From NCBI GenBank assembly GCA_004297985.1, contig SCRA01000038.1:1-64000 (forward strand): a DNA stretch of 64,000 nt, in the 5' to 3' direction. This document shows, in pieces, positions 4,992 through 8,084 of the stretch. Under the pieces are notes generated by a model. The model searched no databases. It had not been told where the DNA came from and saw nothing but the letters and a program-made list of their open reading frames with translations. Position 1 is the first letter of the stretch, and each line of letters starts with the position of its first letter. Source of the DNA: a bacterium. Its GTDB lineage: Bacteria; Vulcanimicrobiota; Vulcanimicrobiia; Vulcanimicrobiales; SCRA01. Made by a program: the position numbers and the translations under genes.

Positions 4992-5273
4992 ATGAGGATC
5001 AGCGCTACGGAGCTGCAGAGCGTGATCGCCGTCTACAAGACCGGTGGGCTGCCGCGGTCGCAAGGCGGCGCGACCGTGATGGATGCGGCGGAGATCTCAC
5101 TGGACGGAGCCGCTCTCTTGGCGATCCGCAAAGCCTACGACCGTCTTCCCGACGTGCGAGAGGATCGGGTGCGCGAATTGCGCCGCCGCGTGAGCGAGGG
5201 CAAGTATTACATTCCGACGGAAGAGATCGTCGAGAAGATCTTGGGGCGGCTCACCGTCGACTCCATGTTCTAG
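4992..5273 (+). CDS. flgM: Anti-sigma-28 factor FlgM
   Basis: Binds and holds sigma-28 (FliA) until the hook is finished, then is exported. The 93-residue protein shows the family pattern: an unstructured N-terminus and a C-terminal helical sigma-binding half (DRVRELRRRVSEGKYYIPTEEIVEKILGRL). The same V-x-x-LR-x-x-V-x-x-GxY pattern is typical of FlgM. Placement directly before the flgN chaperone and the flgK-flgL junction genes is the usual flgMN-flgKL order. No sigma-28 gene is in this window. Confidence 0.85.
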   Translation: MRISATELQSVIAVYKTGGLPRSQGGATVMDAAEISLDGAALLAIRKAYDRLPDVREDRVRELRRRVSEGKYYIPTEEIVEKILGRLTVDSMF

Positions 5274-5280
5274 ATCCCGA

Positions 5281-5401
5281 GGGTCCCCACGAATGGAGCG
5301 CAGCGGCGCTGGGGGCTATGGTTTTTCAACCCGGCGCGAGTGCGCCGGAACGGTACAAGGACCGGGGTCCCCACGAATGGAGCGCAGCGCAATGAGTGGG
5401 G
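5281..5401. repeat. Composite repeat (copy 1) in the flgM-flgN gap
   Basis: A 25-bp block at 5281-5305 is repeated exactly at 5365-5389. Between them is an 18-bp hairpin, CCGGCGCGAGTGCGCCGG (5331-5348; 7-bp stem, GAGT loop). The second block continues into AATGAGTGGGG and ends at 5401. The unit hairpin, 16-nt linker, then box recurs at 5909-5980. The box contains GGAG and the ATG (5392) used here as the flgN start. Confidence 0.8.
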
Positions 5402-5877
5402 CCAATGACTCCTGGGAAGTTTTCGTGGGGGCGCTCGACGTCGAGTGCGCCGCCATGGCGACGCTAGCACAGCATGCTCGCGCTCTCACCGAGGCCTTGA
5501 TCGGCAACGATCTGGAGCGTATGGAGACGGCCCGCCGCGCCGTCGAGGAGGCGCGTATCGCGCACCAGAGCGCGCTCGGTCGCAGGCGCGCGATGCAGCA
5601 GCGAGGTTTCGGTTCGCGCACGCTGGCGCAAGTCGTCGGCTACGCTCCGCGGGCGCTGCGCCCCCGCTTGCAGCAACGCGTCTCTGAGCTGGCCGTCGGG
5701 GCCGCGGGGTTGGCCATCAGCAACAACAACAACAAGGCGTTGATCGCGCAGGGGATGCGGCGTTTGGTGCGCATCGCGCAGATCGCACAGGCGGCGCAAG
5801 ACCACGAGTTGGGGACCTACCAGCGGCGTCGCCGGCGTGACTCCGGCGGCTCCTTCCTCGTGAGCAGCAAGGCGTAA
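5392..5877 (+). CDS. flgN: FlgN-family chaperone for hook-filament junction proteins
   Basis: Cytoplasmic export chaperone for FlgK and FlgL. The 161-residue, mostly helical protein follows flgM and precedes flgK-flgL, where flgN is expected. Sequence similarity is modest: acidic, helix-forming N-terminal half (LTEALIGNDLERMETARRAVEEARIAHQSALG) and an Arg-rich C-terminal half. ATG 5392 is chosen because GGAG lies 9 bases upstream. An in-frame ATG at 5293 would translate straight through the repeat, and ATG 5377 has no good Shine-Dalgarno. Start codon and ribosome binding site both lie inside a dispersed repeat, which is odd. Confidence 0.7.
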   Translation: MSGANDSWEVFVGALDVECAAMATLAQHARALTEALIGNDLERMETARRAVEEARIAHQSALGRRRAMQQRGFGSRTLAQVVGYAPRALRPRLQQRVSELAVGAAGLAISNNNNKALIAQGMRRLVRIAQIAQAAQDHELGTYQRRRRRDSGGSFLVSSKA

Positions 5878-5908
5878 GCGATGTATAAAGACGTCGAACG
5901 GTACGTGC

Positions 5909-5980
5909 CCGGCGCGAGTGCGCCGGAACCTTTCAAGAAATGGGGCCCCCGCGAAATGAAGCGTAGCGAAATGAGTGGGG
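5909..5980. repeat. Composite repeat (copy 2) just before flgK
   Basis: The same 18-bp hairpin (5909-5926, identical to 5331-5348) is followed by a 16-nt linker and a diverged box at 5943-5980 that ends in AAATGAGTGGGG. It aligns to 5365-5401 with one gap and several substitutions. With copy 1 it forms direct repeats of about 70 bp that bracket flgN. Confidence 0.8.
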
Positions 5981-5994
5981 AACGAGTGGGATGA
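5971..5994 (+). other. Seven-codon upstream reading frame coupled to flgK
   Basis: The repeat-borne ATG, equivalent to the flgN start in copy 1, opens a frame encoding MSGERVG. Its TGA (5992-5994) overlaps the flgK ATG (5991-5993). Translation of this mini-frame could deliver ribosomes to flgK, whose own Shine-Dalgarno is weak (GTGGG). Whether it is translated is unknown. Confidence 0.35.
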
Positions 5995-8084
5995 GCTTTT
6001 TCGGCATCAATCTTCTCGGGAACGCGCTCGAGAGCGATCAAACCGCGGCGAACGTGACCTCGCAGGATATTAGTAACGCGAATACGCCGGGGGCCTCTCG
6101 ACAGATGGTCCAATTGGTGGAGTCGACGCCCATCGCGCAACCAGGCTTCCCCATGCACTTCGGGCCCGGCATGCTCGGGGAGGGCGTCTCGGTCCAATCG
6201 ATCCAGCGCGTCCATCAGGATTCCTACGATACGCTCTATCGGAACTCGAACTCGATCGGTGGTTTCTTTTCCGCCGAGCAGAGCATCTTGAACGTCACGC
6301 AGACGAGCTTCAGCGAGCCGGGGGGCCTAGGCGTCAACGCCGCCCTCTCTGGCTTCATCTCGTCGCTGCAGCAGCTGGCAGCGCAGCCGACGACCATCGC
6401 GCAGCGCTCCGGCGTGCTCAGCGCGGCGCAGACGCTGACCGATACGCTCAACAGTGCCTCGCAATCGATCCTGACCCAAGAGACGCAGGTCCAGGGCCAG
6501 GCGACCAACGCCGTCACGCAGGTCAACACGATCGTCGATCGGATCGCCTCGCTCAATGGACAGATTCGCGCCTCGACGGCCGTGGGTGATAATCCCAATC
6601 AGTTGCTGGATCAGCGCGATCAGTTGATCGATCAGCTCTCGGGCTTCCTCAACGTGCAGACCTCCGTGCAGGCCAACGGCTCCACGCTGGTGACCGTGGG
6701 CGGACAGGCGCTGGTCAACGACGCGGTGGCATATCATCTTGCCGCGCCCGTCGTGGCCAAGCCGATGGCGCCCGGCACGCCGCTGCAGCTCGTGATCGGC
6801 TTGGCGAACGACCCCAACCCCAACAATCCGGCGCCGGCCCCGATCAGCGGCGGCCAGTTGGGTGGCTTGCTGGACGCGTATAACACCAAATTGGTGCCCT
6901 ACCTCCAGCAACTCGACAACGTTGCCAGCGGCCTCGCGAATGCTGCAAACCGGGTAGCGCAGTCATCCTACGACTCCAACGGCAGCGCCGGTGCTGCGCT
7001 CTTCATTCCCAGCGCCCCAGGCAATCCCGTCACGGCAGCCTCGATTCGCGTGGGCATCACCAGCCCCGCGGCCGTGACCAGCGGCTTGGCCTCCACGGCG
7101 GCCGGAACGCTGGTTACAGCGCTGAACTCGGCCAACAACGTCGTGGCCAGCTCGCAGACGATCGAGGGCAACAGCTCGTATGCCGGCGTCATGCCGGTCG
7201 GCGCATACAACGGCATCATGACCATCAGCGTCGACGGCCAGACGGAGGCGTACAACTATACCGTCAACGCGGCGACGACGCTCGATCAGTTCATCACGCA
7301 GTTCAACGGCGCCCAACTCGGCGTCTCGATGAGCTTCGACGCGACCTCGCAACGCGTGGTCTTTCAGCGTGATCCCACGAACGAGAGCCTCGTGCTGGGT
7401 GGTACCTCGGCCTATGTGCCGACGCCTGGTTTCACCATCGCCGACGCCATCACGGGCGGCGGGCCGCCGCCTGCGTTTCTGAACGTGGTCGGCGCCGCGG
7501 CGATCAACGGCGTGGCGCAGAACGCGGGCAACGCGCTGGGCACCGCCGACAATGCCGGCGCCAACGCCCTGCTCTCCACGCTGCAGGGGGCCGTGCCGAT
7601 CCCGTTCTTCACGCCCACGACCATTGGTACGGCGGTCGCCGGGGCAGGGACGTTCACGGTGACGCCTGGAGTGCTCACCGGGATCCAGCCCGGGGCGACG
7701 CTGACGATCGATGCCGGCACGCCCAATCAGGAGAACGTCGTCGTCCAGAGCGTGAACTATGCCACGGGGTCCTTCACGGCCACGTTTGCCAAACCGCACA
7801 TCGCGGCGGCAACGGTTCAGGCGACGGCAACGACGAGTCTGGGCTCGTACTATACGAACCTCGTCACACAGATCGGCTTCGATGCGCAGACTTCGATCAA
7901 CGGGGCGAAGAGCCAGACGAGCGTAACGCAGCAGATCGACAACGCGCGCCAGAGCGTCGACGGCATCAACGTCGACGAGGAGACGCAGAACCTGATCAAG
8001 TTCCAGAACGCCTATCAGGCGGTGGCCAAGACGCTGGGCGTCATGGAGCAGATGATCCAGACCGTGCTGGACACGGTTCACTAG
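5991..8084 (+). CDS. flgK: Hook-filament junction protein FlgK (HAP1)
   Basis: First junction protein between hook and filament. The N-terminus (MSFFGINLLGNALESDQTAANVTSQDISNANTPGASRQ, residues 1-38, given as a range) and the C-terminus (SVDGINVDEETQNLIKFQNAYQ, then a final ASKT-like helix) are the conserved D0 parts. The middle is long, making 697 residues against about 550 in enterics, with Thr/Ala/Gly-rich beta domains. The low-complexity middle is surface exposed in the family. It is followed by flgL after 12 bp. Confidence 0.92.
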   Translation: MSFFGINLLGNALESDQTAANVTSQDISNANTPGASRQMVQLVESTPIAQPGFPMHFGPGMLGEGVSVQSIQRVHQDSYDTLYRNSNSIGGFFSAEQSILNVTQTSFSEPGGLGVNAALSGFISSLQQLAAQPTTIAQRSGVLSAAQTLTDTLNSASQSILTQETQVQGQATNAVTQVNTIVDRIASLNGQIRASTAVGDNPNQLLDQRDQLIDQLSGFLNVQTSVQANGSTLVTVGGQALVNDAVAYHLAAPVVAKPMAPGTPLQLVIGLANDPNPNNPAPAPISGGQLGGLLDAYNTKLVPYLQQLDNVASGLANAANRVAQSSYDSNGSAGAALFIPSAPGNPVTAASIRVGITSPAAVTSGLASTAAGTLVTALNSANNVVASSQTIEGNSSYAGVMPVGAYNGIMTISVDGQTEAYNYTVNAATTLDQFITQFNGAQLGVSMSFDATSQRVVFQRDPTNESLVLGGTSAYVPTPGFTIADAITGGGPPPAFLNVVGAAAINGVAQNAGNALGTADNAGANALLSTLQGAVPIPFFTPTTIGTAVAGAGTFTVTPGVLTGIQPGATLTIDAGTPNQENVVVQSVNYATGSFTATFAKPHIAAATVQATATTSLGSYYTNLVTQIGFDAQTSINGAKSQTSVTQQIDNARQSVDGINVDEETQNLIKFQNAYQAVAKTLGVMEQMIQTVLDTVH

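Follow-up and report, generated by a model that had tools for sequence, protein, structure and literature searches.

The window analysed here, a 64,000-nt stretch of DNA, comes from a genome of 3.19 Mb (G000; 90 contigs, 96% complete) that we compared with three congeners (G001, G002 and G003). Among its genes are flagellar genes whose products, FlgM, FlgN, FlgK and FlgJ-type neighbours, are confirmed by Pfam, and two copies of a short repeat unit accompany flgN, one overlapping its start and the other lying in the gap between flgN and flgK. The features of this region are as follows.

4992-5273, plus strand: flgM, the gene upstream of copy 1 (Pfam PF04316, E = 2.5e-11)
5281-5305, plus strand: half unit, the 5′ part of the box (GGGTCCCCACGAATGGAGCGCAGCG) without RTG (exact 25-nt repeat)
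5330-5401, plus strand: copy 1 of the repeat unit, which precedes flgN and overlaps its start (model R2, 94.7 bits)
5331-5348, plus strand: hairpin 1 of copy 1, CCGGCGC GAGT GCGCCGG (covariation; folds as RNA)
5369-5401, plus strand: box of copy 1 (outer stem CCCCAC/GTGGGG, GA/GA, inner 2-bp stem AT/AT, GNA/GNA, GC-GCA-GC core)
5392-5877, plus strand: flgN, start ATG 5392-5394 inside the copy 1 box (Pfam FlgN PF05130, E = 2.9e-8)
5908-5980, plus strand: copy 2 of the repeat unit, in the flgN-flgK gap (model R2, 89.4 bits)
5909-5926, plus strand: hairpin 1 of copy 2, same sequence as the copy 1 hairpin
5971-5994, plus strand: 7-codon frame ATGAGTGGGGAACGAGTGGGATGA in copy 2, opened by ATG 5971-5973, with its TGA (5992-5994) overlapping the flgK ATG (5991-5993)
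5991-8084, plus strand: flgK, the gene downstream of copy 2 (Pfam PF22638, E = 8.5e-58)

The first-pass annotation of this DNA had described two copies with an identical hairpin and a common box, and this description is borne out: the longest exact stretch common to copies 1 and 2 is 22 nt (CCCGGCGCGAGTGCGCCGGAAC), and each repeat pattern has two matches in the window compared with 0.00-0.01 in shuffled sequence. The part of the box that it had noted at 5281-5305 is indeed an exact 25-nt repeat; on refinement, it is no separate feature but the box left over from a second, eroded unit that stood upstream in tandem. This half unit is situated 84 nt from the next box, intact arrays having a period of ~73-80 nt, and it is missing in the relative G001. 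The assignment of the copy 1 ATG to flgN agrees with the Pfam match and with a start shared by four species (see below), and the coordinates confirm that the copy 2 ATG opens a 7-codon frame whose stop lies on the flgK ATG.

A genome-wide search clearly recovered the unit elsewhere. The 72-nt query identified about 30 significant places in G000, a degenerate pattern identified 22 places versus none for a reversed control, and a covariance model with the box stem in the correct register (R2) returned about 62 matches with E under about 0.06, for a family size of ~60 copies. Model R2 gave 24, 24 and 46 matches in the three congeners, and the degenerate pattern gave 22, 18, 10 and 9 matches in the four genomes of the genus. 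Extension of the pattern search to 149 genomes of the phylum, probably Eremiobacterota/Vulcanimicrobiota, yielded counts above control in only these four, as the other 145 mostly contained 0-1 matches, and at most 2, similar to the reversed control. As judged from these searches, the repeat family is restricted to one genus of uncultured bacteria.

The unit measures about 70-80 bp and has three parts: a perfect 7-bp hairpin (hairpin 1), a linker (..TTCAAG..GGGG) and, as a second hairpin, a folded box of 33 nt. Its consensus is (TR)CAANCCGG..GAGT..CCGGAAC-N-TTCAAG-N-GGGG(T/C)CCCCRCGANNGNAGCNNAGCGNANNGAGTGGGG. The hairpin 1 stem occurs as CCGGGCC, CCGGGGC, CCGGCGC, CCGCGCC or CCGAGGC, each with its own complement, and these variants are exchanged as blocks. 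Across 139 copies, in an alignment that was fitted to the tested structure and so favours it, two-sided changes were found for 13 of 13 tested pairs (GC/CG swaps in hairpin 1), and an unfitted 13-copy alignment agrees. The two-sided changes amount to 161 cells versus 48 in shuffles, a score reached by none of 500 shuffles, and the signal collapses when the pairings are slid. The inner 2-bp stem of the box has the variants AC/GT, AT/AT, GC/GC, GC/GT and GT/AC; its pairing holds in 135 of 144 cells, compared with an average of 113 and a highest value of 121 over 2000 shuffles. It contains RTGAGT(GGGG), often with GGAG about 9 nt before, and RNA folding places the RTG within a stem of the box hairpin. 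In a second subfamily, the upstream part is of the CGCYCCCGGAGGGRCTTC type and the end is GAGTGGGATGAGC, with the gene's ATG at the edge of the element; members of a third, whose box hairpin is perfect, are found near RNA genes or between divergent genes. The repeat thus displays the dispersed copies with compensatory stem changes that mark structured interspersed repeats in general. An Rfam covariance-model search returned no match to the repeat and one chance-level match (E 2.4) away from it, on which basis a known RNA family was rejected; a box encoding a conserved peptide was likewise rejected, because the differences among copies are not limited to third codon positions.

No copy was found inside a gene. 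The repeat occupies intergenic gaps, mostly between co-directional genes, and the core genes at its junctions include fusA, rpsG, rpsC, rplN, rplO, rnc and lysS. About 29 of 30 copies at co-directional junctions are oriented with the genes (a hand count; the binomial p of about 3e-8 was computed as 30/31), with the box end meeting the next start codon, which is usually in the box or 20-50 nt away at most. Of the 33 junctions where a coding start lies no more than 60 nt away, 27 have an RTG in their box, compared with 0 of 6 (or 1 of 7) junctions lacking such a start (Fisher p 0.0003-0.001, for junctions classified by hand). Boxes not near a coding start keep the pairing and carry ACG, GCG or ACT instead of RTG; at these non-coding sites the inner pair is reversed (GT/AC, giving ACG) or is GC/GC (giving GCG), such that the structure is retained and the start codon is not. 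Several boxes lack RTG despite a following coding start, at hisF (ACG) and on contigs C27 (GCG), C53 (GGG) and C83 (GTA). GGAG is not universal, occurring with 7 of 8 in-box starts versus 8 of 23 others (p = 0.015, hand-classified).

Several repeat arrays adjoin the 3′ ends of RNA genes in antisense, namely those for tRNA-Cys, tRNA-Leu and RNase P RNA (L134:2687-3206, L119:1507-1857 and L114:1474-2019). The 3′ end of tRNA-Ser(gga) (CGAATCCCTCCCTCTCCGCCA) recurs just past the element that follows that tRNA, like an attachment-site duplication (L070:1404-1640).

The earlier proposal that the unit carries a start site is upheld at flgN. Copy 1 is kept at the same junction in G001, G002 and G003, and the proteins of the four species begin MSGANDSWE, MSGDSWE, MSGDSWE and MSGVDSWE from an RTG-AGT-GGG start. 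Copy 1 also has an in-frame ATG further upstream (5377), which two of the three relatives have not conserved. On this comparative evidence, the box RTG is the flgN start in all four species. The flgN of the source genome additionally contains a 6-bp insertion (codons AN) at window positions 5402-5407, directly after the element-encoded MSG, that is not present in its two closest relatives.

Domain models provide a second line of evidence. Counting from the box RTG, model TIGR03692 begins at residue 8 of hslV and the domain of an EVE-domain gene begins at residue 6, the next in-frame start being residue 20 in both; for rnc, the match to the RNase III model opens at residue 14, the next in-frame start is residue 16, and no alternative was found within 70 nt upstream. 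Because the domain begins before the next in-frame start in all three genes, a later start would cut into the domain or to its edge. These three box starts recur in G003, and the box RTG is almost certainly the start of rnc, hslV and the EVE-domain gene. The box start is also in frame with fliG, DHH, mreD-like and ferredoxin-type genes, for which other starts are possible; in G001 fliG, the hairpin is lost and GGAGCGCAGCGTCATGAGTGGG is kept at the start. We consider the box RTG to be the probable start of fliG, DHH, mreD-like and other genes. A MacB-like ATPase gene seems to read through a whole element, with ~25 element-encoded residues added (L015:1400-1580, G000 C83); its stop overlaps the next ATG in G000, and the versions in the congeners end without the element.

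At flgK, sucD, rplN and rpsC, the box RTG instead opens a frame of 4-7 codons that ends at or overlaps the next ATG. The 7-codon frame and TGA/ATG overlap at flgK are found also in G002 (ATGAGTGGGGAGCGAGTGGAATGA), and a like geometry is seen at rplN (three species), sucD, rpsC (TAA one base before the ATG, two species) and several other genes. The boxes at fusA and rpsG hold 4-codon frames that end upstream, and the frame opened by the box RTG of glmS, leuC and a small number of other genes enters the gene out of frame, which argues against strong initiation at those sites. A test of frame coupling over the junctions, among which orthologues are not independent, gave a trend only. Translational coupling at the box mini-frames is plausible from this geometry.

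The first-pass annotation also called the repeat mobile. Its presence does vary among congeners at several junctions, but the analysis revealed neither a transposase nor target-site duplications of a consistent kind. Elements in G000 correspond to empty sites in one or both congeners at sucC-sucD and at rfaE-like, MacB-like and ammonia-lyase genes, the empty sites sometimes having overlapping stop and start codons. The array of at least 6 units at glmS in G000 is represented by 0 units in G001 and a remnant in G003. Individual sites carry short duplications: ATGAGC is doubled at the ammonia-lyase gene, (A)TGAGC is repeated at the rfaE-like gene and mutL shows one of 13 bp, and none was seen at sucD. 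The two ends of the repeat (CAANCCGG... and ...GTGGGGA) do not form an inverted pair, and there are no terminal inverted repeats. A RAYT gene (Y1_Tnp, PF01797) was not found in G000, although control families were detected and the genome is 96% complete, nor was a reverse transcriptase (RVT_1) gene; mobilization from G000 by either enzyme was rejected, as the genes are missing. Upstream of greA-lysS (L211:595-1794; G000 C81:68.0-69.2 kb) lies the frame of an IS607-like serine recombinase with a TnpB remnant behind it; this pair is near one copy only and was not retained as the probable source of the repeat.

Copy 2 is present at flgN-flgK in G000 and G002, whose 10-base spacers beyond the element agree at 8 positions, and is cleanly absent in G001 and G003, where the G003 junction is consistent with deletion between two ATGAG repeats. 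As G002 is the most distant congener, the simplest reading of this distribution is that copy 2 is probably an old, ancestral copy that was lost twice. A fresh insertion was rejected because G002 carries this copy too, along with its locus-specific spacer and mini-frame. Recombination between the copies, predicted earlier to delete flgN, was not supported: they share at most 22 identical bases, and flgN is kept in all four species, including the two without copy 2.

The explanation that we favour, with reasonable though far from full confidence, is that of a genus-restricted, structured, non-coding interspersed unit, with hairpin 1, a conserved linker and a hairpin-folding box, whose box doubles as a translation-initiation region. 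Arriving at an operon junction, the repeat would bring a start codon, often together with a weak ribosome-binding sequence, such that both neighbouring reading frames could survive. Some genes (flgN, rnc, hslV, EVE; probably fliG, DHH and mreD-like) would have adopted the box start, and at flgK, sucD, rplN and rpsC the short box frame would permit coupled re-initiation. We infer the initiation of ribosomes at the RTG, their re-initiation, and dispersal by transposition-like copying with a putative, possibly lost, enzyme. A bolder version, in which the repeat is a portable translation-initiation module and the box hairpin a working ribosome entry site and coupler, can be advanced only tentatively. 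If it were true, the repeat could insert between essential operon genes, even at an overlapping stop and start, without loss of expression, and would have become the start of conserved genes throughout a genus.

Alternatively, the repeat may be neutral or selfish, with copies staying where they are harmless. Start proximity would then reflect tiny operon gaps, the orientation bias would arise because reversed copies block translation, and the RTG would matter only at the few genes that captured it. Elements abutting tRNA-Cys, tRNA-Leu, tRNA-Ser and RNase P RNA, where a start is unneeded, fit such a reading, as do the clean losses at flgN-flgK in G001 and G003, the tandem arrays and the contig-end breaks; however, the choice of RTG over ACG/GCG follows coding context, G001 fliG retained the start part after loss of the hairpin, and the flgN start is the same in four species. 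We regard this reading as rather unlikely.

It is improbable that the repeat is a cis-regulatory RNA, whose hairpins would be bound by a regulator or nuclease acting on operon mRNAs (translation, ribosomal and flagellar genes), either to control or to segment them, and whose box hairpin would gate the start codon. The strong covariation of both stems, the RTG within a stem and the many core genes are in keeping with this role, but the genes concerned form no coherent regulon, the junctions vary among congeners while orthologous genes work without the element, arrays reach 6 or more units at one gene, and an Rfam match is lacking. Quasi-palindrome correction by strand switching, which would keep the hairpins of an otherwise inert repeat perfect and would suit the near-identical units within arrays and the blockwise swapping of stem variants, is similarly improbable, explaining neither RTG near coding starts versus ACG/GCG elsewhere nor the orientation bias.

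Among known systems, REP/BIME elements resemble the present repeat as GC-rich hairpin repeats in operon gaps, with mosaic arrays, tens of copies and a species-restricted distribution; the many-copy intergenic hairpin of REP-RAYT systems is found here, and the cognate RAYT is not found in G000. To our knowledge, REP elements have not been described as carrying the start codon of the next gene. ERIC sequences (~127 bp, different in sequence) are likewise intergenic and transcribed, with orientation-dependent effects on operon mRNA, but their known effect is RNase E cleavage rather than start supply. The pneumococcal BOX (boxA-boxB-boxC) shares a short modular intergenic organization, variable tandem units, conserved RNA structure and co-transcription with operons, and boxC can encode the start codon of a frame ending beyond the element (PMC3049150). 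BOX starts nevertheless serve BOX-encoded frames, not conserved housekeeping genes, and no strict next-start placement was reported (PMC3049150); the sequences are probably unrelated and the likeness is one of analogy. MITEs such as MITEAba12 and Correia elements are also non-autonomous, intergenic and structured (PMC6382973, PMC10969869), and in three cases MITEAba12 is able to provide a neighbouring gene with its first four residues, MQQS (PMC6382973). The present repeat differs from MITEs in lacking terminal inverted repeats and a consistent target duplication, and in that its start supply is recurrent, oriented and conserved between species. A stem-loop survey of 40 genomes, which predates the genomes of this genus, describes seven families that span coding/non-coding borders and mentions 'start codon' 0 times (PMC2267715). 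Our literature search for Eremiobacterota repeats and for start-donating repeats found nothing specific. The repeat therefore behaves as a REP/BOX/MITE-type intergenic repeat yet lacks the RAYT of REP-RAYT systems and the terminal inverted repeats of MITEs. Its earlier description as unusual is fair but needs qualifying, given the precedents in boxC (PMC3049150) and MITEAba12 (PMC6382973); what is new is the recurrence, orientation, between-species conservation and covarying hairpin around the start.

Repeats are already known as donors of promoters, terminators and nuclease sites to adjacent genes. A review of prokaryotic MITEs lists promoters, IHF sites, RNase sites, inactivation and sRNAs as roles; start codons are not mentioned, and systematic start-codon donation to conserved genes is absent from these roles (PMC10969869). 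The family described here suggests that dispersed repeats can turn into working parts of gene starts and, if initiation at the box is true, it would show how insertions can spread among the closely spaced genes of operons and leave them intact. It is also a warning that automated start calls need to be checked in genomes of this kind. The repeat also bears on assembly, as it makes short tandem arrays whose units are almost identical: the G000 contig ends C14/C51, C61/C55, C17/C72, C86/C27 and C62/C13 lie inside arrays with matching units, and these arrays therefore probably broke the assembly, the paired contigs being probably adjacent (glmS, fliF-fliG and others).
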